From the IMG/VR virus record IMGVR_UViG_3300033553_000300, positions 1 through 44,702 of that record: 44,702 nucleotides of DNA; one strand, 5' to 3'. Below, in pieces: positions 2,736 to 44,702 of this stretch (position 1 is the stretch's first letter; every line of letters begins with the position of its first letter). The translations under genes and the position numbers were made by a program. The stretch is from a virus. The notes under the pieces were generated by a model. It was not told the DNA's origin. It did not search any database and saw only the letters and a list, made by a program, of their open reading frames with translations.

Positions 2736-4282
2736 AACTGGAGGCTGACGAGAAACCGTCACCGCAGATTAAGATTTCGGCTGAAGAGGCTGTGAAGCTT
2801 GGGGCTGTCGATGGAAGCCTGTTCGGTCGCTTTTTCTTCCCGAGGGCGTTTAAGCAGGACAGCCCTCCCTGCCATAGAGAGATGGATGAGCTGCTTGATG
2901 ATCTGGATGCGCCCTTTGTTTCGTTCATGATCCCCCGTGGCTGGGCGAAAACGACGAAGACCCGCGTCTATATTGCGAGGCGGATTGCGTATGGAATCTC
3001 CCGCACGATCATGGTGGTGGGGAAGTCTCAGGATGCCGCGGTAAAGACCCTCGAATGGATCAAGAAAAGCGTTGAGCATAATCATCGCTATGCTGATACC
3101 TTCGGCTTACAGCCTGGATCGCGATGGTCAGGAAGCGATATCGAGATTATCCATAACCACTACCGAGATGAGAATGGAGGCCCGCTGAGGATTCGTCTCC
3201 TGGCGTATGGCATGACCGGCTCAGTGCGGGGTGTGAACATTGATGATGCTCGGCCAGACCTAATTGTAGTCGATGATCCCTGCGACGAAGAGAACACAGG
3301 CTCCGTCGAGCAACGTAAAAAGACTGCCGACCTATTTTTTGGTAGTATCCTGAATACCCTCGCCTCCGAAGCAGATACCCCCTATATTAAGATGGTTCTC
3401 CTGCAGACAGTTCTCAATCCGCAGGATCTCGTGTCGCTCTGCGATAAGGATCGTGAGTGGAAATCGCTGCGCATCTCTTGCTTCGATGAGGCTGGGAATA
3501 GCACGTGGCCTCAGCGTTGGCCTACGAAGAAACTCCTGGCCAAACGGCAGGGGTATGTTGATAGGAATCAGCTTGCTCTGTGGATGAGGGAGATGGAGAG
3601 CCGCTGCATCAATGATGATCTTGCGGCGTTCAATGAGAATCAGCTCCGGTATTGGGACGATGTAGTAGATGGGGTTGGCGGGACAATGCCCTTAGGAGGT
3701 TACACTTTCCTTTCGATTGATCCTGTCCCGCCGCCGAAGGATGAGATGAATGTTAAGATTACGAAGCGGCACGATAACGCTGTGATTAGTGCGATCCGGA
3801 TTGCGCATGGGGCTGCCTATATTGGGGAGCAGTACGCAGTGAAGAGTCCGGATACGCAGGAGTTCCTCAATCAGATTTTTCTTATGTCGAATATCTGGAA
3901 GACGAAGACAGTCGTTTGCGAGACTGTCCTGTTTCAGCGGGTGTTACGCTGGGCCATACAGCAGGAGATGGTGCGCCGGAGGGAATACATTACGGTGATC
4001 CCAATTGAGGATAAACGGCCGAAGCCTGCGCGTATCCGGCAAGAGATTTCTGCGTATGCGTCGAACCGGCAGCTCTACGTGAGCAGGGAGATGAAAGGAT
4101 TCCTTGATGAGTTTTGGGGGTACCCCTTCGTAGATCACGACGATCACCTTGATAGCGTAGCGATCGGCCTTATGCACATCAATCCGTACATGCTAGAGGC
4201 CAGCGTGATCGAGGGCGAGTATACTGTGGTGGAAGACGGCGAGTCTGATCACTTGTTAGAGAATTGGAGAGCTGACGTATGA
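2723..4282 (+). CDS. terL: Terminase large subunit
   Basis: 519 aa, normal length. This ATP-driven packaging motor has a C-terminal nuclease that cuts concatemers. The ATPase domain carries a divergent Walker A (PRGWAKTTK, 71-79) and Walker B with catalytic acidic residues (LIVVDDPCDEE, 180-190). The RNase H-like nuclease domain shows the first Asp in FLSIDPVP (D333), a second acidic residue near CET (E400) and the DHDDHLD cluster (471-477). The start overlaps the previous gene and the stop overlaps the portal start by 4 bp (ATGA), so translation is coupled. No intein or frameshift is seen. Confidence 0.95.
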   Translation: MESIKLEADEKPSPQIKISAEEAVKLGAVDGSLFGRFFFPRAFKQDSPPCHREMDELLDDLDAPFVSFMIPRGWAKTTKTRVYIARRIAYGISRTIMVVGKSQDAAVKTLEWIKKSVEHNHRYADTFGLQPGSRWSGSDIEIIHNHYRDENGGPLRIRLLAYGMTGSVRGVNIDDARPDLIVVDDPCDEENTGSVEQRKKTADLFFGSILNTLASEADTPYIKMVLLQTVLNPQDLVSLCDKDREWKSLRISCFDEAGNSTWPQRWPTKKLLAKRQGYVDRNQLALWMREMESRCINDDLAAFNENQLRYWDDVVDGVGGTMPLGGYTFLSIDPVPPPKDEMNVKITKRHDNAVISAIRIAHGAAYIGEQYAVKSPDTQEFLNQIFLMSNIWKTKTVVCETVLFQRVLRWAIQQEMVRRREYITVIPIEDKRPKPARIRQEISAYASNRQLYVSREMKGFLDEFWGYPFVDHDDHLDSVAIGLMHINPYMLEASVIEGEYTVVEDGESDHLLENWRADV

Positions 4283-6288
4283 ACACTATTAATGTGCCGA
4301 TGAAGAGCAAAATGCACAAGACCATCGTCGATGCTGTTAAGGCTCGCAAGGAAATGTCCGAGAACTATATGGCTGATGCGCAGAAGCAATGGAATCGCTC
4401 GGAGGAAGATTTCAAGGCGTACATTCCGACGAATGACGAAGACAAGAAAGAGAAGGTTGCGCGGGATGCCAGTGGGTCGCTGAACTACCAGAAGATTGTC
4501 GTTCCGTATGCCTACAGTATGCTGATGACAGCGCACACTTACTTTGCGAGTACCCTGCTGGGGCGCGATCCCATCTTCCAGTATGTCGGGGCGCACGGCG
4601 AACCAGAGCAGAATGTCCACGCAATCGAGGCGCTGACCGCGTACCAGATGCGGCACGGCTATAATACGGCTGTGCTTTTCTTGTGGCTGATGGATGCGGC
4701 GAAATACGGCATAGGGATTGTGTTCGATTACTGGTCGGAGGAGAGCCACTATATCACCACGCTCGAGGAGAGAGGGCAGGAGGTGATGGGAATGGAACTG
4801 CCGGGCAGGAAGAAAAAGCAGGTGCGGGTCACGAAGGAAATCCCAGGGTATGAGGGATCAAACATCTTCAATACGAGCCCGTATGATTATCTACCTGATA
4901 CGCGGGTTCCTCTAAGTCAGCCTAACCGCGGCGAGTTCGTCGGGCGGAAGATTAAGCTCAGCTATAATGAGGTCGTGCAGGAGAAGTTGCAGGGGAACTA
5001 CATCGAGGAGAATGCCGACGAAGTTCTGAAGAGGATGCGGAATGGCGTCACTGGCAACGGCGACGATAGTGGTCACTCGCATGTAACCTGGCGTCCCGGA
5101 GATGATTCCTTCATTTCGAACCTCGATCCGAAGACAGGGCTTAATGCGAAGATTCCCTGCGTTGAGATGGTGGTGGAGATTATTCCTAAGTTGTGGGGGA
5201 TTGGCGAACTCGAGGTTCCCACCAAGTGGGTCTTCACGATCACTGATGAGAAGACAGCGAACATCGTCCTGGGAGCGCGTCCCTATGGGATGGAGCACAA
5301 TCGGTTCCCTGCGCACGTTCTCGAGATCGAGATGGATGCGTACAATCTGATTAAGCGAGGGATGCTCGACATAGGGCGTCCGATGAATGACACCCTGACG
5401 TGGCTCTTCAACTCCCACTTCTATAATGTGGAGCGCTCGCTGAATGGGGAGCTGGTATTCGATCCGAGTAAAGTGCGGGCGGCAGATATTCTTGATCCGA
5501 AGCCGGGGAAGCGAATCCGCTTGCGGCCAGAAGCATATGGCACTGATGTTAGGACTGCGGTCTACTCGTTGCAGCCTGGAGCGGAATCAACGCAGACCAA
5601 CCTTCGGGATATGGGGGTAGTGACAGAGTTGCTGCAGCAGAGCCTCGGGGTTAATGAAGGGATGCTTGGGAATACCCCAGGCGGAAGAACCAGCGCTACC
5701 GCATCGCGGATTGCTACAACCGCGGCTACCTCCCGCCTCAAAACAGTGGTGGATTATTTCAGCTGTACAGGGTTCCAGACACTCTCTCTGAACATGCTGC
5801 AGAATGCACAGCAACTGTATGACGGGGTTCAGAAGTTTAAAGTCGCTGGAGATCTCCCGAACAGTGTTGACTCATTCGTCGAAGTCAGTGCGGCCAATAT
5901 TGCAGGGGGGTATGAGTATGTACCTGTCGATGGAAGTATGCCGGTTGATCGTGTTGCCTCCGTTAATATGTGGTCGCAACTGCTGAATCAGTTCCGTCAA
6001 TATCCCGCATTGGCAGAGAGATACGATGTAGGTAAAATTATCGGGTGGGTAATGCAGCAGGGCGGCATCCGCAACTTGAAACAATTCGAGGTGCAGTCGC
6101 AGTCTCCGGAAGTGATAGCTGCGAAAGTTGCCAAAGGCGAACTGAGAGAAGTGGGAGGAGATGATGGGAGTGTGGGCGGAGGAGGAGATAGATCAGCTGG
6201 AGCCGCGCGATCAACTGAAGACGCTAATCGAGCTGCGGCACAGGTTCCAAACCCTGGTCAATCAGGAGGTATGGGGCGAACTGTGTGA
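4279..6288 (+). CDS. Portal protein
   Basis: 669 aa, in the size range of podovirus portals. It should form the dodecameric ring through which DNA enters and leaves the head. Evidence is position directly after the large terminase and before the scaffold and capsid, plus portal-like features: an N-terminal stem region with YSMLMTAHTYF and DAAKYGIGIVFDYW, a mid-protein crown region, and a flexible Gly/Ser/Ala-rich C-terminus from about residue 615. That C-terminal tail is encoded in the 128 bp that also encode the start of the next gene in another frame. Confidence 0.9.
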   Translation: MNTINVPMKSKMHKTIVDAVKARKEMSENYMADAQKQWNRSEEDFKAYIPTNDEDKKEKVARDASGSLNYQKIVVPYAYSMLMTAHTYFASTLLGRDPIFQYVGAHGEPEQNVHAIEALTAYQMRHGYNTAVLFLWLMDAAKYGIGIVFDYWSEESHYITTLEERGQEVMGMELPGRKKKQVRVTKEIPGYEGSNIFNTSPYDYLPDTRVPLSQPNRGEFVGRKIKLSYNEVVQEKLQGNYIEENADEVLKRMRNGVTGNGDDSGHSHVTWRPGDDSFISNLDPKTGLNAKIPCVEMVVEIIPKLWGIGELEVPTKWVFTITDEKTANIVLGARPYGMEHNRFPAHVLEIEMDAYNLIKRGMLDIGRPMNDTLTWLFNSHFYNVERSLNGELVFDPSKVRAADILDPKPGKRIRLRPEAYGTDVRTAVYSLQPGAESTQTNLRDMGVVTELLQQSLGVNEGMLGNTPGGRTSATASRIATTAATSRLKTVVDYFSCTGFQTLSLNMLQNAQQLYDGVQKFKVAGDLPNSVDSFVEVSAANIAGGYEYVPVDGSMPVDRVASVNMWSQLLNQFRQYPALAERYDVGKIIGWVMQQGGIRNLKQFEVQSQSPEVIAAKVAKGELREVGGDDGSVGGGGDRSAGAARSTEDANRAAAQVPNPGQSGGMGRTV

Positions 6289-7495: not shown

Positions 7496-8707
7496 ATGGC
7501 TATTCTCGGCTTACGTGGTACAGGTGATTTTGGAACGGACGAACGTCCGAAGTCTTTTCGTGAATCAATCTTGTGGAGGGAGCCTAACGGCGAAGCCCCT
7601 CTGACTGCTCTGATGAGCAAAATGCGTAAGGGCAGTTTGACTGACCCTGAGCACAGCTGGTGGGAAGAAGATCTTGAAGTCACTCGGCTGCAGCTGAATG
7701 ATGCAACTGATATGACTGCAGGTGACACTGCTGTTGTCGTGGACGCCGGTGCGTATAACCTGGTTCCCGGCGATATCCTGATGGTGGAGAAGGAGTCAAC
7801 TGAAACTACTTCGTATACTGCGGAGCTGGTGAAGGTTGCTGCGAATCCTACGTCGGATACAGAGTTCACTATCGTGCGTGGCTACGCAGGAACAACTGCA
7901 GCCGCCATCACCGATGGGGATTATTTCCTGAAGATCAGTACTTCCTTCGCGGAAGGTTCAGGTAGTCCGAACTCCTCAACTCGTAACCCTACCAAGCTGT
8001 TCAACTATGCGCAGATTTGGAAGACCTCTTACGAGCTGACCAACACCGCCAAGAAAACCAAGTTCCGTACTGGCGATCCTCTGAAGAATGATAAGATTCG
8101 GAAGATGTTCGATCACTCAGTGACGTTGGAACTCAGTGCGCTCTTCGGTGTCCGCAATGAAACTACCGGCGCGAACGGCAAGCCTGAGCGGAGCATGGGT
8201 GGCCTGTTGTATATGCTGCAACAGTATCATGGAACCGGCGGCTTCAAGCGGTACACTGCAGCGGTGACGTACAATACCCTGTTGGATGATATCTATCAGG
8301 TATTTGATTACAACATCCGTGGAGCTGGAAGCGGTAACGAGCGTCTGGTACTCCTGGGTAATGGTGCGCTGAATGAGCTGAACAAGCTTATGACAGCCTC
8401 CGGTCAGGTGCAATTCAAGGAAGTCATCACCGTGTATGGGATGAATCTTACAAAGATCATTCTTCCGCAGGGTACGCTTTACTTGAAGACGCATCCGCTG
8501 TTGAACCGTCTTCCAGCGTTCACCAACTCTGCCTTCATCATCAATCCTCCTGGCCTGAACTGGCGTGCGCTTCGTGATACGAAGTCAGAAACCAACATTC
8601 AGCTCCCTGGAATGGATACCGAGAAGGGGCAGTGGCTGACTGAAGGTTTGATTGAGTTCAATCACCTGCAGACGTTTAAGTACCTGGGCAACATCTCCTC
8701 TACCTAA
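7496..8707 (+). CDS. Major capsid protein
   Basis: 403 aa. It forms the icosahedral shell. Position after the scaffold and before the terminator, and the sequence style (N-terminal WREPNGEAPLTALMSKM and SWWEEDLEVTRLQL, a mid-protein beta insertion, then TLELSALFGVRN and the QYHGTGGF loop) resemble the DUF5309/SU10-type capsid proteins with an HK97 fold. The family name is from memory and not verified. AGGAG lies 7 bases before the ATG. The rho-independent terminator 24 bp after the stop suggests a strong head-gene transcript ends here. Confidence 0.88.
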   Translation: MAILGLRGTGDFGTDERPKSFRESILWREPNGEAPLTALMSKMRKGSLTDPEHSWWEEDLEVTRLQLNDATDMTAGDTAVVVDAGAYNLVPGDILMVEKESTETTSYTAELVKVAANPTSDTEFTIVRGYAGTTAAAITDGDYFLKISTSFAEGSGSPNSSTRNPTKLFNYAQIWKTSYELTNTAKKTKFRTGDPLKNDKIRKMFDHSVTLELSALFGVRNETTGANGKPERSMGGLLYMLQQYHGTGGFKRYTAAVTYNTLLDDIYQVFDYNIRGAGSGNERLVLLGNGALNELNKLMTASGQVQFKEVITVYGMNLTKIILPQGTLYLKTHPLLNRLPAFTNSAFIINPPGLNWRALRDTKSETNIQLPGMDTEKGQWLTEGLIEFNHLQTFKYLGNISST

Positions 8708-9765: not shown

Positions 9766-10902
9766 ATGCCAGCTAATATCAAACTAAGTACCCTTTCCGT
9801 TAAGCCTATCCGTCTTCCTACAGGGCGACTAAACACGCAGATAGACTATAGGGATGGGGTTGCCCCCGGAGGCGGAACTCTCCCGGCAGGAAGCATCATC
9901 TTCGAAGATAACTTCGACTCGCAGCCGGATTGGACTGCCGACGAAATCATCCTGGCGCCGAACGTGTTTGATCCTACCGCCGTTCCTCCAGGGTGGTATT
10001 ACGGCAACTCGCGTCCTTTGTGGTCTCCAGCAAAGACTGGCGAATTGGACAAGCACCCTGTAAGTGAAATCTTGGCAGTCAACTCGGGGAAAGCGAAGGG
10101 CAAGACTGGGAAGTCGTTTGTGAAGTGGCGGGAGTCCAGCACAAATGGTCAGTACAACTCTGACGGCATTCTGCTTAAATATTTTCCTGAAGGTCACGAC
10201 GAAATCTACGTTGAGTTTGAGATTATGCTTTCAGAGCTGATCTTTGACTTGGCTACTGGTGGTACGGCTGGTGCCACTAAAGTATTCCGGTGCTACTACT
10301 ACGACGAGACGACAGGAGAGCCTACTAATTATTTCAGCTCCAATACTCCGTTCCATGTCTGGGACTTGGCGCTTGATGATCAGTCCGCCTTCGGCTGCCG
10401 CAATTTCCAGAATTTCCGGGCACGTGGCGCGGCCCTCATTAAGGATTCCATACAGGCGGAGCTTGGCCGTGCGATGAATGGCGGGGATGTTTCCTTGGGA
10501 TACGCTGCAGCGTCTATGACTGGGAGGGCGGTAGGTGGCGGCGACCCAGAGCTAACAGATAGGCTTAATGGAGGCATCATTGGGGCAAGCCCAGTCCTCG
10601 CAAGACAGATATTCGGGGCGGAAGACGAATGGGTAAAGGTAGCATTCTACTACAAGATGAACTCCGCGCCCGGCGTGGAAGATGGTTTATTCATGCAATG
10701 GATAGACGACAAGCGTGTCGTCCTTGTAACAAAAGCGGCTTGGGTAGGCGCTGATGCTAGTATGGTTAAGTGGAACATGATCGGCATAGGTGGCAACAGT
10801 AAGGTTGACCGGTACTCGGAGGCTGTGCAGTACGAGGACTGGTTTTCTATTGATAACATTGCAGTTTATAATGGAATCCCCCCTAATAGAGGACTTGTCT
10901 AA
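9766..10902 (+). CDS. Putative lectin-fold virion protein
   Basis: 378 aa. I see FEDNFDSQPDW near residue 45, then alternating strands with many aromatic residues (IYVEFEIMLSE; WVKVAFYYKM; GLFMQWIDDK), as in concanavalin/LamG-type or polysaccharide-lyase-like beta-sandwiches. This is fold resemblance only. Position in the virion block, coupled by TAATG to the next Ig-like protein, suggests a decoration or host-surface-binding protein. It is the first gene after palindromic element copy 2 and has GAGG 8 bases upstream. Confidence 0.55.
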   Translation: MPANIKLSTLSVKPIRLPTGRLNTQIDYRDGVAPGGGTLPAGSIIFEDNFDSQPDWTADEIILAPNVFDPTAVPPGWYYGNSRPLWSPAKTGELDKHPVSEILAVNSGKAKGKTGKSFVKWRESSTNGQYNSDGILLKYFPEGHDEIYVEFEIMLSELIFDLATGGTAGATKVFRCYYYDETTGEPTNYFSSNTPFHVWDLALDDQSAFGCRNFQNFRARGAALIKDSIQAELGRAMNGGDVSLGYAAASMTGRAVGGGDPELTDRLNGGIIGASPVLARQIFGAEDEWVKVAFYYKMNSAPGVEDGLFMQWIDDKRVVLVTKAAWVGADASMVKWNMIGIGGNSKVDRYSEAVQYEDWFSIDNIAVYNGIPPNRGLV

Positions 10903-11675
10903 TGCCTTTAGAACTCAGAGTAAACCTCGCCCACGGCCCAAGCGTAGCGAACGACGCCAATTGGGTGCACCAAAACGTAAACGCTGATACCTTGGACGTT
11001 GTGGATTTCAACACCGGGCTCGCTACTGGCGTTGACATAATCCTTGGGACAATTTTCCAGAGCGCGGTAACGAGTGTCGGCGCTGGCGGTTCTGCTTGCT
11101 CGGGTGATGCGGCATGGGCTGGAAGCACCGCCAACCTCGGAGGGTGGGTACTAACCGCTTCTTGGAGTGACGTAGAGTACCAGAACTTAGACCCGGCTAA
11201 AAAGTACTGTGTTGAGTTTTACGGGCTGTCCTCCAGTGGCGGGCCAAAACCAATTGATACCAGAGTTAATGGTGGGGCTGTAGTAACTCTTCCAGATGTA
11301 GTACAAAATTTTACTGATGTAGCGCAGCATTTGGATATATCCCCTGATGTATCTGGAACGATAAAAGTAGAGTTTCAGGACGGCGGCGGCAGCGGTGTTA
11401 TATCAGCCATGCGCCTATATGAAGTTGCAGGACCTACGGTAACTCTCAATCAAACTGAACTTACCCCTGGCGGAACTATTTCAGGAACCTACAGCAATTT
11501 CTCAAGTACTCCGACTAGCCCGCTAACTCTCACAGATAGCAATGGCAACACAATCTCTGTCCCTGTGACAGTGGATAGCGGAGCCAAAACTTGGACTGGA
11601 ACAATGCCAGCACTTCCTACTTCCGGTAGCATTGCTGGATTGCTCTTCGGAAATATTGATGTGGAGCTGAGCTAA
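10902..11675 (+). CDS. Putative carbohydrate-binding/Ig-like virion protein
   Basis: 257 aa. Residues 1-175 look like a jelly-roll module (GGWVLTASWSDVEYQNLDP, then YCVEFYGLSSSG and TIKVEFQDGGG), similar in style to galactose-binding or CBM folds. Residues 178-257 look like an Ig-like domain (VTLNQTELTPGGTISGTYS). The family is not verified. Start and stop both overlap neighbours by TAATG, so it is translated together with the Ig-adaptor fusion. A surface or neck appendage role is inferred. Confidence 0.55.
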   Translation: MPLELRVNLAHGPSVANDANWVHQNVNADTLDVVDFNTGLATGVDIILGTIFQSAVTSVGAGGSACSGDAAWAGSTANLGGWVLTASWSDVEYQNLDPAKKYCVEFYGLSSSGGPKPIDTRVNGGAVVTLPDVVQNFTDVAQHLDISPDVSGTIKVEFQDGGGSGVISAMRLYEVAGPTVTLNQTELTPGGTISGTYSNFSSTPTSPLTLTDSNGNTISVPVTVDSGAKTWTGTMPALPTSGSIAGLLFGNIDVELS

Positions 11676-14641
11676 TGGCTACTCAAACTGTTCCCTACGT
11701 CGCGGCAGCGGGGAGAGCCTACACGACTTTAACTAGTTGGGCGGGCACTCTCTCCTTCTCCGTAACTCCGGTCTCTGGTGACCAGCTTGAACACTCTTCT
11801 GCCCTAACAGTAGCTGCTGATGGAACTTACACAGGGCCTGTTGGGACTTACGTATTTCACTTAATTACAGCCGCCGGCACTACCTATACTGCGGCTGCTA
11901 CTATCTCCGGGGCAGATACAATTGCTCCAGTGTTATCTGCGGCTTCCGCAGTGGCAACCTCCGCCACCACAGCGAGAGGACAAGTAACAACTGATGAAAT
12001 AGCTGGCACACTCTGGGGATATATTAGTGCAAACTCTTCTGAGTCCGAAGCCACTATTAAGGCAAATGGGGCCAGTAAAACTGTAGTAACAGCTACCACC
12101 TATTTTGATTTTACTACACTGACAGAGCGGGCCTCCTATTACGTACACTTTGTGCAGGATGATGCGGCAGGAACCCCGAACACCTCGAATGTGGTTCGCT
12201 CTTCCCTTTTCTCGACGCCGCAGAGTGGGGAGTTCGCTGCAACAACAATTCCCCTAGTGGCTCCAGCGGGGAAGACGCTCACTACCCTTGTAGCAGGATT
12301 TGATCCTTACATCTTTGAGCAGTGGCCTACCGGAGAGCCAGCTGCTGGCTGGAATCTTTTAACAAATACTGCTGACATGACAATTTCCGAACTTGGGAAT
12401 TTGCAAGATTTTGGTGAGGGGATTTTTCCGGTTTGGGTTGTCGATTTAAACGGCATTACTTACTACCAGACAATTGATACAACTGAGTTAGTTGGGGCTA
12501 ACGGCGCTACGATCTCAGCACTAGCTGTTCCTGCGGATGGCGTATATGAAACAGCTGATACTCTAACTTTCACTGCCACTTTCTCTCTTGTGATTACTGT
12601 TACAGGAACCCCTAGACTTGCCCTGGATATTGGTGGGACTGTTCGGTACGCGGATTATGTCTCAGGAACAGGTACCACAGATCTTGTCTTTACGCATACT
12701 GTACTGTCGGGGGATAATGATCTCGACGGTATAGCTGTGACAGGGCTGGGATTGAATGGAGGCACTCTTCTTGACAGTAACGGGAATCTGGCTCAACTAA
12801 CACTGCCAGCGGTAACTACGTCAGGAATTACTGTTGATACGTTGGCGCCAGCAGGGACAGTGGACTCGCTAACTACTAATGCGAGTCAGCCAGCAATAAC
12901 TGGCACCATTGATGATCCTGCGGCTACGATCGTAGTAAGTCCTGGCTCTGTCTCAGCAACTAACAATCAGGACGGAACGTGGTCACTCGCTGCTGGGCAG
13001 ATCACCGCTCTGTCCGCAGGCAACAACACAGTAACTGCAGTCTTTACTGACGCCTTTGCCCGGGTAAGTTCTGCCTCAGCGATAGTGATCCTTAATGTGA
13101 CAGCCCCGGTTGTTACTATTAATGCTCTATCCACAAGCGACAATACCCCGTTGGTAACTGGTACGTGTAACGTCAGCAATGCGTTGATTGAAGTCCTGGT
13201 TGAGGGGTTCACCTATACCACTGGAGTATCAAATGGTAACTGGTCTGTAGTAGTCACTAATGAGCTTTCAGTTGGGAGTAGAACGGCTACGGTGACTGCT
13301 ACTGATCCGGCCGGGAACAGCTCTCAAGATACTGCCACGTTAGAGATCACAGACGTACTTGGGCCCAACGCAACAGGAATTAGTATTCCTGCTCCAGGCA
13401 TTTACGCCGACGGAGTTGCGTTGGAGATAGCAGTAACTTTCGATGAAATAACTATTGTCACTGGCGCGCCAAGCATCGCGGTTCAGGTTGGGACGACTAC
13501 CAGAAATTGGGTCTATCAGTCTGGTTCTGGATTAACGCAGCTAGTATTCTCGTACACCACAGTCGTTGGTGATAACGCAACGCAAGGCCTAACCCTTGGC
13601 TCTCTACAGCTAAACGGCGGTACGATCAGGGATCAGTCTGGCAATGATGCTGGGCTTACTCTTCCAGCAGTTGATGCAAGCAACATTCTCATCGACACGG
13701 AAGCAGCTGTTATTACTGTCAATGCTCAGACAACGATTAACTCTGCGCCCGTTATTACAGGTACCTCAAGTGAGCAGACTGCCCAACTAACTCTGGTTGT
13801 TGCAGGAACTACCTATCATCCAGTTGTTTCAGCTGACGGAAGTTGGCAACAGCAGATTGGTAGTGTCGGAGTAGGCCAATGGGCAATGACGCTCGATGCG
13901 GTTGACTCTGCTGGCTATGTTTCCGTACAGGATACAGCGACTCTTCTCATTGAGGTTCCTGAAGAGCTAAGCGATCCCAACGAGCCAGACAGGCTGAGTC
14001 AGGCACTGCTTCTCTTGAAGAGAAGACTTGGACGGTATACGGCGAATCCGACTGAGCTGGATGATTTCATTCTTGATGAGTTGATTGCGGCGCAGACAAG
14101 ACTCGAGAATAAAGCGGTACTTCCTTGGTTCCTGAAAGCACGGATTAGTAACATTCAAACTACCCCAGGGCAAGAACATATAGTTCTCCCTTATGATTGG
14201 GTGCGGCTACGGGAGGACTGGGAAAAGCCGGTGCAACTCAACTATCAAGGGAAGTGGGCAAATCTAAACGTATACAGCTATGAGATGCTTTGGGAGAATA
14301 CCTCTTCCGAAAGCTCTGTTCCGACAGGCTGTGCCCAAGATGGAAGAACCATCGTGATGGGGCCTCCGCCGAATGCAGTTTACCAAATTAAGCTTGCCTA
14401 CTACAAGAGGGAGTACACGCTGAAACTGCAGAAGGTCACATCGAATGCTTGGTTGAAATACGCCTTCGATTTGATTGTGTCAGAAGCAGGTTTCATCTTG
14501 GCTAATAACTATCTGAAGAATCAAGAGGCGGCAGGGCAATTTGCTGCAGAAGTTAAACGCGCGGATCAAGACCTTCGTATGACAACTATTGCTTACGAAG
14601 TGGCCGCAATGGAAAGTTGGGAGCTAGCTAATGGCCGTTGA
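11675..14641 (+). CDS. Ig-like repeat protein fused to head-tail adaptor
   Basis: 988 aa in one open frame. Residues about 80-185 resemble a fibronectin-III-like domain. About 283-395 and 565-675 form a repeated pair, each with an ADGV/ADTL-type start and LQLNGGT-like strands. About 392-475, 478-562 and 679-760 resemble bacterial Ig domains with NNTVTAVFTD and TATVTATDPAGN strands. From about 766 the style changes to a helical protein (RLSQALLLLKRRLGRY, FILDELIAAQTRLENKA) with a beta insertion, resembling the P22 gp4-type adaptor that docks on the portal. Such adaptors are usually about 170-220 aa and stand alone. No start codon with a Shine-Dalgarno site was seen at the junction, so a true fusion is likely. 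Twelve adaptor copies would place twelve Ig arms around the neck (inference). Confidence 0.75.
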   Translation: MATQTVPYVAAAGRAYTTLTSWAGTLSFSVTPVSGDQLEHSSALTVAADGTYTGPVGTYVFHLITAAGTTYTAAATISGADTIAPVLSAASAVATSATTARGQVTTDEIAGTLWGYISANSSESEATIKANGASKTVVTATTYFDFTTLTERASYYVHFVQDDAAGTPNTSNVVRSSLFSTPQSGEFAATTIPLVAPAGKTLTTLVAGFDPYIFEQWPTGEPAAGWNLLTNTADMTISELGNLQDFGEGIFPVWVVDLNGITYYQTIDTTELVGANGATISALAVPADGVYETADTLTFTATFSLVITVTGTPRLALDIGGTVRYADYVSGTGTTDLVFTHTVLSGDNDLDGIAVTGLGLNGGTLLDSNGNLAQLTLPAVTTSGITVDTLAPAGTVDSLTTNASQPAITGTIDDPAATIVVSPGSVSATNNQDGTWSLAAGQITALSAGNNTVTAVFTDAFARVSSASAIVILNVTAPVVTINALSTSDNTPLVTGTCNVSNALIEVLVEGFTYTTGVSNGNWSVVVTNELSVGSRTATVTATDPAGNSSQDTATLEITDVLGPNATGISIPAPGIYADGVALEIAVTFDEITIVTGAPSIAVQVGTTTRNWVYQSGSGLTQLVFSYTTVVGDNATQGLTLGSLQLNGGTIRDQSGNDAGLTLPAVDASNILIDTEAAVITVNAQTTINSAPVITGTSSEQTAQLTLVVAGTTYHPVVSADGSWQQQIGSVGVGQWAMTLDAVDSAGYVSVQDTATLLIEVPEELSDPNEPDRLSQALLLLKRRLGRYTANPTELDDFILDELIAAQTRLENKAVLPWFLKARISNIQTTPGQEHIVLPYDWVRLREDWEKPVQLNYQGKWANLNVYSYEMLWENTSSESSVPTGCAQDGRTIVMGPPPNAVYQIKLAYYKREYTLKLQKVTSNAWLKYAFDLIVSEAGFILANNYLKNQEAAGQFAAEVKRADQDLRMTTIAYEVAAMESWELANGR

Positions 14642-15734
14642 AAACGCAACCACACCAGATGGGCTTGATGCGAATCTACCATCAGGATCAGACTTCAAAA
14701 GCGAAGGTGATAATCATCTTCGCCTACTGAAGGGCGTCATCAAAAATGTTTTGCAGGGGATCACCGGGAGAGCAACCTCCGGAGAAGCAGCTGACATAGC
14801 TACCCCAGTGAATACGAAGATCATGACCCCGCTTAGAGTCTTCGAGCAGGTCTCTGCGAGGGTGGCTACACAGGTAATAGCGGAGGGGGGAACTGATGAT
14901 TCTCGTGGGATGACGTCCCTTCGGACGAAGCAGTATGTCGACGCAAGGTTGGTGAGTAAAACTGTAGTAGAAGCTGGAGCCGATAATACAAAGCTCACTA
15001 CGGCTCTTCGCCTCAAGGAGTATATTGATGCGCGGATACCAAGTGAAACGGTAGCTGCAGCGGGCACTGACAATGTGGGGCTGCTTACTCCTCTCCGTGG
15101 CGCACAGCTTGCGCAAGCAAAGTTTGCCTTAAACTATACCGCGAAGATAGCTTCGCAGACGGTTTCCAACGACGGAACAGCCGATAATGTTACTGTGACC
15201 CCGCTGAAGGCTCGGGTAACCAGTGATGCTCGGTATCTGCGCTTGGCTCAGACTACCACCTTTACCCGGTCGATTCTGGATGATGCCGATGCCGCTGCTG
15301 TAAGGACAACTCTCGGGCTAAGCGCAGCCGCTACAGCGGTTGTGAGTTCTTCGGTTATCTCCACCAGTTCCGTAACTCTGGCTAATAGTTTGGCAGTGAA
15401 AACTGTTAGGGATTTGACTGTAGCAGCGCAAGCTACTGCTGAGGCTTCGGCAAGCCAAACCCAAGAAACGTTTGGAGCGCATAACGCTATGGTTATGGCC
15501 ATAGCCTTAGTAACTGTAAATTCTGGGGCTACCGTAAGTGGGGCTAATCTGCGTCCTGCCAGTATAGGTATTACTGCCAACAGTACACCTGAAGGTTCAA
15601 CTTACAGTGTTCAACAGCCCGCCGTAGGGAGTGCTCTCACTGGAACCTGGAGGAATCTTGGCGCCACCGTTCAGGCTTCCGGACTCAACAGTACCAGTGA
15701 CAGGTATGTTAGCTTGTTTATAAGGATCTCATAA
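14631..15734 (+). CDS. Tail fibre protein with 30-residue repeats
   Basis: 367 aa. After an N-terminal attachment region (1-48) come about five repeats of 28-32 residues at roughly 50-77, 78-106, 107-135, 136-168 and 172-203. Each carries a V-hydrophobic start, a GTD or GAD turn, a TPL/TSL/TAL-R segment and a YVDAR/YIDAR-like end. Residues 214-232 (ILDDADAAAVRTTLGLS) match the motif often found before fibre tips, and the rest is a beta-rich tip. Repeats of this kind form trimeric phage tail-fibre shafts. The gene overlaps the Ig-adaptor gene by 11 bp and the nozzle gene by 1 bp. Confidence 0.75.
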   Translation: MAVENATTPDGLDANLPSGSDFKSEGDNHLRLLKGVIKNVLQGITGRATSGEAADIATPVNTKIMTPLRVFEQVSARVATQVIAEGGTDDSRGMTSLRTKQYVDARLVSKTVVEAGADNTKLTTALRLKEYIDARIPSETVAAAGTDNVGLLTPLRGAQLAQAKFALNYTAKIASQTVSNDGTADNVTVTPLKARVTSDARYLRLAQTTTFTRSILDDADAAAVRTTLGLSAAATAVVSSSVISTSSVTLANSLAVKTVRDLTVAAQATAEASASQTQETFGAHNAMVMAIALVTVNSGATVSGANLRPASIGITANSTPEGSTYSVQQPAVGSALTGTWRNLGATVQASGLNSTSDRYVSLFIRIS

Positions 15735-17329
15735 TGCCTATCATTAAGCTCCGCACACTAGGCTCGGTCGGAGTAAACACGGACATAGCTCCGGAGAGCC
15801 TTAACCCACTGGCCATGACGAATGTCCAGAATATGAGCTTCTACAACAAGGCTCCGCAAAAAGCGCTGGGGTATGTGAGTGGGGCTTTTAGTGCGCTGCC
15901 GATAGTTCCCTATGGCGTAATGCCTGCGCAGGGGCCGTCGGATTATACCTGGGTTATTCTGGGCCTAACGAAGGTGTACGCTTTCTATAACGGAGCCCTA
16001 GTTGATATAACTCGTGTGGCTTCCGATTATACAGGATCGACGTTCATTCCCTGGACTGGCGCGTGGGTAAGTGGAATCACGCTGGTTAATAATGGGGTAG
16101 ATGTTCCTCAGTTCACAAGCACCATCGACGGCTCAGCAAAACTTGCAGACCTCACAAACTGGCCTGCGAGTACTTCCTGCCGGGTGTTGAGGGCGTTTAA
16201 GAATTTCGTTATAGCGATGGATGTTACTAAATCTGGCGTTCGTTATCCAACCCTCTTTAAGTGGTCACACCCCGCAGATCCGGGGGGTATTCCTCCTAGC
16301 TGGGATGAAACTGATGCGACGTATCTTGCCGGCGAGTTTCCTCTCTCCGCTACCCCAGGGAGATTGATTGACGGCCTAGCCATGAAGAATAGCTTCATCG
16401 TGTATAAAAGCGATGGGATTATAGCTGTTCGAGAAACTAGTGATAACGACGTATTTCGCTTTGATACTATCTCCACCACCACAGGGGTTCCGGCGATTAA
16501 CTGCGTGACTGAGTTTAAACCCGGCCTTCATGCCTTCATCTCCCAGACTGGAGACCTGATGGTAAACAATGGCCAAGGGATAACTAGCATCGCATCGAAC
16601 AGGGTGAGGAAACTTCTCGCAGCTTCTGTCGATAATAATCAGTTGGATCGCAGCTTCTGCTTTACCGATGTGCGGAATACTGAGGTGGTTTTCTGCTTCG
16701 CAATCGAAGGAAGCGAGTGGCCGAACTTTGGCCTTACCTGGAATTGGGAGGAGGATACTTTCGGAACAAGGAGGTTTGCTCCCATCTCTGCAGTAGGGTC
16801 AGGAAAATATAACATCGTTGTTTCCAGTGGAGAGACTTGGGATAGTGATGACACTGCATGGGATAGCGACAATGAAAGCTGGGATGGTGTATCGGTAAAC
16901 GTTATCTCGAATCGTATCCTCGGGGTGAGTCCTGTGGCGACGGAGTCGTATCTGCTTGGGAGAGGATATACAGCCGATGGGGAGGCGACACGGAGCTTTG
17001 TGGAGAGGCGGACACTTCCTGTGGCTGGGCAAGACCTCTCCGGGAATCTGACTCTTGATCCGCGCTTGGTGAAACTTGTTACGAGGGTGTGGCCAATCAT
17101 AGAGGTAGATAATGATGAGCCCTTCACCGTCAGGATCGGAATGCAGGATAGTGCCTCGGCGCCTATCACCTGGCAGACTATCAACGACTTCAAGCCGAAG
17201 ACAGATGAGTATCTGGAATTTTTCTGTGAGGGGCGGTATCTGAGCTACTACATAGAGAATCTAGGCAGCTCCAACTGGAAACTCATTGGGTTCGATATTG
17301 AGCTTGTTCTGAATGGGGAGAGGTTCTAA
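15734..17329 (+). CDS. Tail nozzle protein (P22 gp10-like)
   Basis: 531 aa. It probably forms the hexameric nozzle below the adaptor that seals packaged DNA. The N-terminal region (LRTLGSVGVNTDIAPESLNP, then NVQNMSFYNKAPQKALGY) is typical of this family. The body is beta-propeller-like, with repeated short strands such as TWVILGLTKVYAFYNG, FIVYKSDGIIAVRETS and the WDSDDTAWDSDNESWDG segment. Its size and its place after the adaptor and fibre genes fit. Family assignment is by style and position. Confidence 0.75.
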   Translation: MPIIKLRTLGSVGVNTDIAPESLNPLAMTNVQNMSFYNKAPQKALGYVSGAFSALPIVPYGVMPAQGPSDYTWVILGLTKVYAFYNGALVDITRVASDYTGSTFIPWTGAWVSGITLVNNGVDVPQFTSTIDGSAKLADLTNWPASTSCRVLRAFKNFVIAMDVTKSGVRYPTLFKWSHPADPGGIPPSWDETDATYLAGEFPLSATPGRLIDGLAMKNSFIVYKSDGIIAVRETSDNDVFRFDTISTTTGVPAINCVTEFKPGLHAFISQTGDLMVNNGQGITSIASNRVRKLLAASVDNNQLDRSFCFTDVRNTEVVFCFAIEGSEWPNFGLTWNWEEDTFGTRRFAPISAVGSGKYNIVVSSGETWDSDDTAWDSDNESWDGVSVNVISNRILGVSPVATESYLLGRGYTADGEATRSFVERRTLPVAGQDLSGNLTLDPRLVKLVTRVWPIIEVDNDEPFTVRIGMQDSASAPITWQTINDFKPKTDEYLEFFCEGRYLSYYIENLGSSNWKLIGFDIELVLNGERF

Positions 17330-26581: not shown

Positions 26582-29098
26582 TCACGCCACAAGCGCCCCC
26601 TTATCGAAATCCCATTCTGCACAGTCGCCCCAGCTTTTATCACTGATCTTTGCGCCTACGGGAATAAGCAAAGGGTCATCATATGGTACAACAATTTCCA
26701 TCTCCTTACGGATTTTTCTCAAACACTCGACGCGACGATCTGCCGGATATTCAAACACCCCCGAGTCGTGAACCTGCAGCAACGGATAGCATTCATCTTG
26801 GACGAGATTCTCGTCTACGTTAACTATCCCTTTGTCGATAACGATCGCGACGGTGGACTGGGGAATCCATGCCAACGCTTCAGGCAGGAGACCTTCAACC
26901 CTATCGAAATAGTATCGACGGAAGCCGAACTTATTGTAGACGCAGCGCTCAACCATCAGCTGTCTCTCAATGCGATTCTGCCAATCGCGGATACCTGGGT
27001 AGGTAGAGAACCACTTCGATTGGGCAGCTTCCGATTCCATAATAGTGCAGTGTGCAACGATTGCCATGGTGCGAGCGGAACCGCCGTAGTTGGTGCCGTG
27101 TACGAAAGCCTTTGCGAAGTCCCTATGAGCTTTGTATTTCTCCTTAATCCGTGCAAGAAGAACCGGATCACGCAGGTCATCGACGGAGTATGGAAGATCG
27201 AAGAGAACCTGTGCGTTAGCGAGGTGAAGATCAATCCCCTCCTTCAGGAGGAGCTTAAGTCGATCTTCGTCTGCTTCCCACACCACGACTTGAAGGTCAG
27301 CTCGGTCGAGGTCGAAGTCTGCGATCTCGAATCCCTCGTCAGGAATGAACATTCGCTTAACGTTGGGTGCCTGAAATCTTTCGGCTCCTTTAGATTTTTC
27401 AGGGTTGGGTATATTCTGCAGGTTCCCTCCGGAGTTGAAAGCATTTTCTGAACTGCTATACCGATACGTTTCTGTGCCAGCGATGTTGTAACTGCAGCGC
27501 AGTCGTCCATCCATATCTGTTCGCATTTGTACGAAGGTGCTGGATAAGACTCCGATGCTGCGATAATCAAGGATCGCGTTACATACCGGCTTAAGAAGGG
27601 GTGTCCGTTTGCCAATCTTTGTAAGAGCATCATCGTTTGTAGTAGGGCGTTTTGTCTTGCGATCGACGATAATCGGCTGTCCCAGCTCTTCATAGAATAG
27701 TTCAGCCATTTGCTTGGGAGACTTAGGGTTGACGTCCCTTCCAATGAATTTATGGACTGCAGCAAGGCGCTCATTTGCGGCATTGTTAAGAATCCAAAAT
27801 AGGTAGTCCTGTGCTTTGTCATCACGGCGTACTCCTCGCAGCATCATACGTATGGTAGTGCGGAGGTTGTGTTTTTGCTGGAACTCATTCTGCTCAGTCA
27901 GGTTGAACTTATCGACCATCCCTCTCAGCACTGTTGCACACTCGTAAGTGACTACGCAATCCTTACAGTTGTACTCCCACAGTCTGCGCTCGTCGTGATG
28001 TTCAAGGTCGAAGTGTTTCCCATCATCCTTCCAGTACTGGTGGAATCGACAGTACATGCTCGAGATAAAGTCCAGGGATTTTTTGAGTCCTGCCCAGCAG
28101 ACGTGGTGCGCCACCATCGTATCAAAGTCCGGCAGTGCATCACAGTTCCACCATCTGAACCAGTACTGAACATCGTAGCTACCATTTTGAGTCTCAATCA
28201 AAGCGTTCGGGTGGGAGAAAAGATCCTTGAGAGCGAGGATGATATTGCGTTCCTGCAGGAAAGACCAGTACCCCTCCGGGCGCCGGGCCTTCATCAGTGG
28301 GATGCAAATAGCATCGACATTGCTCCAACCAATCCCACAGCAAGCAGTATGTCCACTACGTGTTTCGAGATCCACGGCCAACCGTGTAGGTTGTGTTTCC
28401 ACGCGGAGACGTAGCTTGCGAATAGTAGACATAACTGTCGCGTAGTCAGGAGCCACAATAAAATTATACTCAGGAAGAATCCAAGCGTCATCATTGAGCG
28501 CCCTCCGCAGGTCGTGCTTAATGAAGTAGGTATCGGAAAAGTTTCTGCGTGCTGTCGCCGGACTAACGATCGGCATAAGGCGAGCGGTTGTTCCGTCCTC
28601 ATAGGTGTAGAAGAGCTGACTGCCCCGCCACTTTGTTATGCCAGCTTCTCCGGTCAACGCGTAGAGAGCTACGTTACCGGCGGCGATGATGATCTTTGGG
28701 CGAACCTCTTCAAGAAGCTTCTTCAGGTTAGCGAAGTGCTTATCTACTCCGAGTGCTAGTTTGACATTCTTCCCACTCTTCTTAACGTATTGGGATGGGT
28801 CGCCCCTCGGAGCAGGACGACAGATTGCATACGTCTTGCTGCAGGCAGCGAAGTCGATCCCCCCATCGGCGAAGAGCGACTTAACGAATCGGCTGTAGTT
28901 TCCGCTGAAGGGGCGCTGGTTGTTTACGTCATCCTGCGTGGGGCATTCCCCGACGACAAGAATCTCAGAGCCGTTTATCTCCGGCAGAATTGTAGGATGG
29001 CCGACACTGATCTGTGCGGCTTTCGCTTTGGCTGGTTTCTTGGCAGGAGCTTTCGCTCCCTCCTGCACAAGATCATCCAGTAAAGATGATGCTGTCAT
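26582..29098 (-). CDS. Family A DNA polymerase with N-terminal UDG-like domain
   Basis: 838 aa. Residues about 45-200 resemble family 4 uracil-DNA glycosylase: VVGECP (48-53), PFSGNYSRF, ICRPAP, IIAAGNVALYALTG and a RGSQL turn. The motif-2 His-Pro-Ala is Ser-Pro-Ala (IVSPATARR, S179), and most iron-sulphur cysteines are missing. The 3'-5' exonuclease follows: DLE (D243, E245), NGSYD (305-309), YNCKD (376-380). The polymerase motifs are A (DFDLDRADLQ, 594-603), B (RDFAKAFVHGTNYGG, 659-673) and C (VHDS, H777 D778). I chose the start at 29098 because AGAGGAT lies 8 bases upstream; upstream in-frame codons overlap the 88-aa gene. SPO1-type phage polymerases have a comparable UDG-like N-terminus. 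It is the replicative polymerase. Confidence 0.92.
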   Translation of the reverse strand: MTASSLLDDLVQEGAKAPAKKPAKAKAAQISVGHPTILPEINGSEILVVGECPTQDDVNNQRPFSGNYSRFVKSLFADGGIDFAACSKTYAICRPAPRGDPSQYVKKSGKNVKLALGVDKHFANLKKLLEEVRPKIIIAAGNVALYALTGEAGITKWRGSQLFYTYEDGTTARLMPIVSPATARRNFSDTYFIKHDLRRALNDDAWILPEYNFIVAPDYATVMSTIRKLRLRVETQPTRLAVDLETRSGHTACCGIGWSNVDAICIPLMKARRPEGYWSFLQERNIILALKDLFSHPNALIETQNGSYDVQYWFRWWNCDALPDFDTMVAHHVCWAGLKKSLDFISSMYCRFHQYWKDDGKHFDLEHHDERRLWEYNCKDCVVTYECATVLRGMVDKFNLTEQNEFQQKHNLRTTIRMMLRGVRRDDKAQDYLFWILNNAANERLAAVHKFIGRDVNPKSPKQMAELFYEELGQPIIVDRKTKRPTTNDDALTKIGKRTPLLKPVCNAILDYRSIGVLSSTFVQMRTDMDGRLRCSYNIAGTETYRYSSSENAFNSGGNLQNIPNPEKSKGAERFQAPNVKRMFIPDEGFEIADFDLDRADLQVVVWEADEDRLKLLLKEGIDLHLANAQVLFDLPYSVDDLRDPVLLARIKEKYKAHRDFAKAFVHGTNYGGSARTMAIVAHCTIMESEAAQSKWFSTYPGIRDWQNRIERQLMVERCVYNKFGFRRYYFDRVEGLLPEALAWIPQSTVAIVIDKGIVNVDENLVQDECYPLLQVHDSGVFEYPADRRVECLRKIRKEMEIVVPYDDPLLIPVGAKISDKSWGDCAEWDFDKGALVA

Positions 29099-29339
29099 TG
29101 TCGCGATCCTCTTTGTTTTCTTCCTCGTGAACCCCTCCGATCTGCTGCACGTACGGCTTGATCGTATCATCGAAGAGGAGTTCGATCTCTGAATCCGATT
29201 CGAGGATGAACTTCCCCCGCTCACCACTCTTTGCTGGGTAGGCGGGAACGCAGTACTCCCTATCCTCATCCACGATGAAGTACTGGCCGACGCGCCAGAC
29301 TGGGTTCTGCATAATCACTATGTAGGTGTGACGTTTCAT
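29073..29339 (-). CDS. Hypothetical acidic protein, 88 aa
   Basis: No family recognised. It begins MKRHTYIVIMQNPVWRVGQY and has strand-rich character (YFIVDEDREYCVPAYPAK), then an acidic C-terminal tail (GGVHEEENKEDRDND). It overlaps the polymerase start by 26 bp and begins in a TAATG overlap with the zinc-finger minigene, so it is translated as part of the replication operon. It may be a small KOW/SH3-like or regulatory protein, which is a guess. Confidence 0.75.
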   Translation of the reverse strand: MKRHTYIVIMQNPVWRVGQYFIVDEDREYCVPAYPAKSGERGKFILESDSEIELLFDDTIKPYVQQIGGVHEEENKEDRDNDSIIFTG

Positions 29340-44561: not shown

Positions 44562-44702
44562 ATGCTGAAATATGTGATTTCCCCATATTTCGTGGGGGGG
44601 TGTCCCATATCCGGGGGTATGGCGTGACCTGGGTGGGGTTTTGTTTTGGGTAAGGTTTTGGGTGTGTGTTTCTTAGTTTAAAAAAAAAAAAAAAAAAAAA
44701 AT
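44562..44702. repeat. Terminal direct repeat, right copy (assembly overlap)
   Basis: Exact copy of bases 1-141; see the left copy. The unit length without it is 44,561 bp. Confidence 0.9.

Follow-up and report, generated by a model that had tools for sequence, protein, structure and literature searches.

An Ig-like repeat array and an SU10/VP1-type head-tail adaptor encoded as a single chain in a phage genome

Few parts of a phage virion are as constrained as the head-tail adaptor, and a gene that joins one to a long array of Ig-like domains raises the questions of whether the fusion is real and what such a chain would do in the particle. We analysed such a gene in the window, that is the entire IMG/VR virus record of 44,702 bases, which comes from an uncultured short-tailed phage. 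Its reading frame is open throughout, from ATG to stop (988 codons), and the SD energy of its ATG (-5.6) is comparable to those of the neighbouring genes. The gene and its parts are as follows:

11675..14641, + strand: fused gene, Ig-like repeats and head-tail adaptor, 988 aa (single ORF)
11675..12502, + strand: residues 1-276, probably beta-rich (no Pfam match, no confident model)
12503..13108, + strand: residues 277-478, Ig-like module copy 1 (identity to copy 2, module HMM)
13133..13345, + strand: residues 487-557, Big_13 Ig-like domain (best Pfam PF19077 stretch)
13352..13960, + strand: residues 560-762, Ig-like module copy 2 (PS6/PS3 identity, module HMM, AlphaFold)
13961..13990, + strand: residues 763-772, short linker (hinge) from Ig array to adaptor (pLDDT dip, sequence)
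13991..14641, + strand: residues 773-988, SU10/VP1-type head-tail adaptor (PF24175, 8zkk, pLDDT 92)

The preliminary description took the C-terminal part for an adaptor of the P22 gp4 type. It is an adaptor, but by Pfam and fold its type is SU10/VP1. The Pfam family SU10_adaptor (PF24175) matches residues 781-965 (E = 1.1e-10, 42.7 bits against a gathering cut-off of 27), and phmmer finds gp12 of phage VP1, an adaptor of solved structure (8zkk, E = 5.5e-7). AlphaFold models the last 228 residues with a mean pLDDT of 92 and a pTM of 0.85, and the model has the expected N-terminal helices, beta domain and long C-terminal helix. The best PDB fold match is again 8zkk (E = 2e-13, TM 0.71/0.79); SU10 7z47 matches with a TM of 0.62-0.65, and the other top matches are phage portal-tail adaptor-type chains, from cyanophage A4, SU10 and Pa223. 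No P22 chain is among the PDB matches listed for this half, and SU10/VP1-type chains match far better. Because the C-terminal part adopts an adaptor fold, the first ground on which the preliminary description might have failed, that this part would not fold so, falls away.

The adaptor half is full-length from the first helix onward and retains all four invariant positions of the family. It shares family, fold and gene position with SU10 gp11 and VP1 gp12 over its last ~215 residues, including a fibre gene that directly follows, but those known members are separate proteins of ~200-230 aa, whereas here 772 residues precede the domain. At 988 aa the chain thus departs from the separate ~200-260-aa protein that is typical of, though not required by, the fold. 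Another long chain, the 1308-aa viral protein A0A516LKR8 in BFVD, also matches the adaptor fold.

Upstream of the adaptor, Pfam Big_13 matches three stretches of the protein (whole-protein E = 7.7e-14, 52.5 bits against a gathering score of 27). A module of ~200 residues occurs twice, at residues 277-478 and 560-762 (39% identity between the copies; 279 and 311 bits, respectively, with the module HMM), and an extra Big_13 domain lies in between. Each copy shares ~40% identity with the last 200 residues of proteins from the Marinobacter phages PS3 and PS6; copy 2, modelled by AlphaFold at a pLDDT of about 90, is 42% identical to PS6 and 40% to PS3. As a whole-chain alignment (A9) put Ig homologues onto the adaptor, trimmed modules were used instead. 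An Ig-like character, proposed together with Fn3-like repeats for the first ~760 residues, is established only for about 277-762. Residues 1-276 gave nothing in Pfam even at E ≤ 10, and AlphaFold assigns them a pLDDT below 50, with the alignment empty in that stretch.

Whole-chain structure prediction, a check suggested in the preliminary description, gave a confident Ig block, a drop to pLDDT below 50 at residues 764-766 and then a confident adaptor. The hinge between the two blocks reads PEELSDPNEP and is acidic and proline-containing. Reading frame, Pfam and fold together confirm that an Ig-like N-terminal array and a C-terminal adaptor are encoded as a single chain.

The portal, capsid, fibre and structural protein genes around the fusion point to the type of phage that the SU10-type adaptor comes from, and the order portal, capsid, adaptor, fibre, structural protein is as expected for SU10/VP1-type phages:

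4279..6288, + strand: portal protein (Pfam SU10_portal, E = 1e-10; 37% identity to the ABTNL-3 and Mel-JY34 homologues)
7496..8707, + strand: major capsid protein (Pfam SU10_MCP, E = 9e-34)
9766..10902, + strand: 378-aa neighbour, no significant family match (TAATG stop/start overlap with the next gene)
10902..11675, + strand: 257-aa neighbour (TAATG stop/start overlap with the fused gene)
14631..15734, + strand: tail fibre-like gene with a conserved N-terminal anchor (phrog_6465 tail protein; Mel-JY34 similarity)
15734..17329, + strand: virion structural protein, probable nozzle by position (phrog_3287, E = 7e-83; homologues in Mel-JY34 and ABTNL-3)

The product of the fibre-like gene is 52% identical over 48 residues to a fibre-annotated gene of Mel-JY34. 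The two genes directly preceding the fusion had been described as lectin- or Ig-like; neither has a significant family match, nor significant homology to the lectin-like or Ig-associated genes of PS3 and of two IMG/VR contigs, L101 and L302. The 257-aa protein weakly matches a chain of a human Ig-family protein (E = 4e-4), but this was discounted because the query is compositionally biased. Elsewhere in the window, the 895-aa DNA polymerase A product at 26582-29269 (- strand) also matches uracil-DNA glycosylase at residues 100-246.

The two ends of the window are identical over 141 bases, so the genome is probably complete and closed, at about 44.6 kb. The length of this exact terminal repeat (1-141 and 44562-44702) suggests a k-mer overlap left by the assembler in a circular contig. 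Three HMMs run against all six frames of the closed genome found no second adaptor. Every adaptor subunit should therefore carry an arm, unless the chain is processed.

Were the chain cut in this way at the hinge, or were translation from an internal start to yield a shorter adaptor as well, some or none of the subunits would carry arms. This is the strongest of the alternatives, though we regard it as unlikely. The low-confidence hinge at 764-766 speaks for this reading, and partial display has a precedent in the T3 capsid protein, which bears Ig domains on a fraction of its copies (described in PMC13320782). The best internal candidate, ATG 13886 (residue 738), would yield a 251-aa product, near the natural length of adaptors, and its SD energy is -6.1 when spacing is left free, like that of real genes. 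With normal spacing, however, the value drops to -2.9, which 33% of all ATGs reach, while nearly all neighbouring genes lie between -4.5 and -8.7 (the exception being 19855, at -0.3). Moreover, the product would start within the last Ig domain, the position of the adaptor's own start is no longer a start codon, and no protease is among the proteins identified here. By the SD energies of in-frame starts, no convincing internal start lies near the junction; as for the internal start that the preliminary description named as one way to two proteins, the candidate at 13886 was judged weak.

To place the fusion among known adaptors, we surveyed related viral contigs. An alignment of portal proteins yielded 80 related contigs, and further scans added to the adaptor counts; a 23-sequence adaptor alignment was too divergent for scanning and smaller sets were used. 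Single-sequence scans of viral contigs returned no close relatives of the window. The 84 distinct SU10-type adaptors have a median length of 215 aa, and an N-terminal extension of more than 60 residues occurs solely in that of the window, so that the description of adaptors as normally separate and small proteins holds for the other 83. Three of 88 distinct Pam1-type adaptors have such an extension (L101, L118 and L213). In L118 (phage 023Pt_psg01) and L213 it is a different domain of ~115 residues without a Pfam match; this domain (L118:4129-5226, L213:1256-2260) ends in CT.HS.MG, a motif reminiscent of the copper site of cupredoxins. The Pam1-type adaptor of Pelagibacter phage HTVC027P (L115:4492-5430) has an insertion of ~80 residues, which lies within the adaptor domain and not at an end.

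All four adaptor fusions are thus N-terminal. Among the surveyed adaptors there is no comparable C-terminal fusion; the sole C-terminal excess among SU10-type matches, in L189, belongs to a weak partial match. In SU10 the C-terminal embracing loop of the adaptor binds the portal (PMC9509320), and we attribute the N-terminal placement of added domains to this use of the C-terminus.

The remaining fusion is that of L101 (IMGVR_UViG_3300031953_000088), a 936-aa protein in which the same Ig module occurs three times N-terminal to an adaptor. As in the window, it lies between capsid and tail genes, after two ORFs without known fold. It differs in that its adaptor is of the Pam1 type, with C-terminal relatives annotated as adaptors in CRP-901, DSL-LC04 ('Pam1 adaptor protein') and Pag-Yong1, and in that an SU10-type adaptor-like gene is present separately on the same contig. 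The proteins upstream of the two fusion genes have no detectable homology to each other. The bases before the two starts (11655-11683 and L101:4478-4506) are nearly identical (GTGGAGCTGA.CTAATGGCT). Ig-adaptor fusion is rare and, judging from these sequences, also arose separately in another phage lineage.

Free-standing relatives of the Ig array suggest where it came from. The PS3 and PS6 proteins (phrog_30287), of 731-732 aa, carry the closest phage relatives of the module near their C-termini but end in a short basic tail where the window has its adaptor. Their gene is preceded by an ORF with the same 1-nt stop/start overlap as in the window, where TAATG overlaps join the genes at 9766, 10902 and 11675; the Ig genes of L101 and L302 overlap the preceding gene in the same way. 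L302 has the cassette of L101 with the third gene unfused, and free-standing Ig-module proteins also occur in the IMG/VR contigs L089-L100 and L102. In bacterial genomes the module is found in long, cell-surface-type ORFs, and the adaptor fusion is absent from those genomes.

The place in which the array sits is variable. Capsid and adaptor genes of the relatives are separated by an interval that ranges from about 0.4 to over 5 kb and whose genes differ from one relative to the next: the 855-aa protein of L031 overlaps the start of the adaptor gene by 4 nt without being fused to it, and Mel-JY34 has an 864-aa protein that ends directly ahead of the adaptor gene. The latter (L005:9793-12384, - strand, in Microcystis phage Mel-JY34) looks glycoside hydrolase-like by eye, with no Pfam match. 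Repeat-rich, surface-type proteins of unrelated sequence occupy the same interval at L031:13032-15599 and L044:14307-15368. In the simplest history, a cassette with an Ig-repeat gene would have arrived beside the adaptor gene in this variable spot, and loss of the upstream gene's stop and of the adaptor gene's start would then have produced a single fused chain.

Two characterised systems resemble this arrangement in part. In the adaptor of roseophage R4C, which is a dodecamer, a flexible segment connects the adaptor part to an N-terminal Ig-like domain, and this domain is peripheral and outside the capsid (PMC10276861); the protein is described there as unlike other known adaptors, RcGTA-style naming aside. 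The flexible joining of N-terminal Ig-like domains to an adaptor is as in the window, but R4C is a siphophage, and it has one Ig-like domain of ~106 residues, from another Ig family, where the window has at least five. The neck passage structure of the 936 lactococcal phages is a neck-anchored collar with carbohydrate-binding modules (PMC6669499). It is, however, a separate protein around the connector, with its modules on trimeric coiled coils and no fusion to the adaptor.

We consider it probable that the gene is a genuine fusion of a cassette-borne Ig-repeat protein with the phage's sole SU10/VP1-type adaptor, and that it provides accessory adhesion arms anchored at the neck. The adaptor half would keep its normal job as a ring under the portal, its C-terminal helix gripping the portal. 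As the SU10 adaptor is a dodecamer (PMC9509320), homology suggests twelve copies here. The Ig array would exit the ring via the short hinge and project outside, since twelve arms of 770 residues could hardly fit in the channel. If the full chain survives, the neck would bear about twelve arms, each with at least five Ig-like domains. We hypothesize that the arms bind surface glycans with low affinity, in an accessory role, and so retain the virion close to cells until the separate tail fibre takes hold; as the fibre is encoded by its own gene, which has a conserved anchor, the arms would supplement it. In phage Douge, Ig-like domains in isolated form do bind mycobacterial cells (PMC13033339).

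Alternatively, the array could be structural, lying against the capsid or neck and stabilising the head-tail joint rather than binding cells. Contact of the R4C Ig-like domain with the capsid has been interpreted as stabilising (PMC10276861). Yet relatives that share the portal and capsid type have none of these domains, the array is far longer than local contact needs, and the same module is free-standing in siphophages, all of which make this reading improbable. Accessory adhesion appears likelier than stabilisation because the array is long, its module occurs in bacterial surface-type proteins and it is absent from close relatives.

Finally, an error could have joined two adjacent genes. 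In the other two frames, no ATG, GTG or TTG between 13940 and 14020 reads into the adaptor, and nearby other-frame ATG and TTG codons run into a TAA at the junction; a single-base indel therefore does not restore a separate adaptor, and a frameshift artefact was rejected. Although the exact SU10-type fusion is carried by one contig only and neighbours in relatives such as L031 overlap by so few bases that a small error could fuse their frames, an assembly or sequencing artefact is very improbable given these frames, the independent presence of the same type of fusion in L101 and the closure of the contig by its 141-bp repeat.

A single known structure, that of R4C, shows an adaptor with N-terminal Ig decoration; the literature searched holds no description of a multi-domain array on an SU10-type adaptor, nor of the Pam1-type parallel. 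More tentatively, adaptors may be a recurrent N-terminal docking platform for exchangeable surface-binding domains, with the ring serving as a twelve-armed, fibre-independent adsorption organelle. That all four fusions are N-terminal agrees with the known role of the C-terminus in holding the portal. Should the ring accommodate twelve arms of about 770 residues each, the neck would be a usable display site, and receptor contacts would not be confined to fibres, spikes and capsid decorations. The finding also opens a simple way to test whether adhesion domains are anchored to the connector in phages, and accounts for how cassettes adjoining the adaptor gene could become a permanent part of virions.
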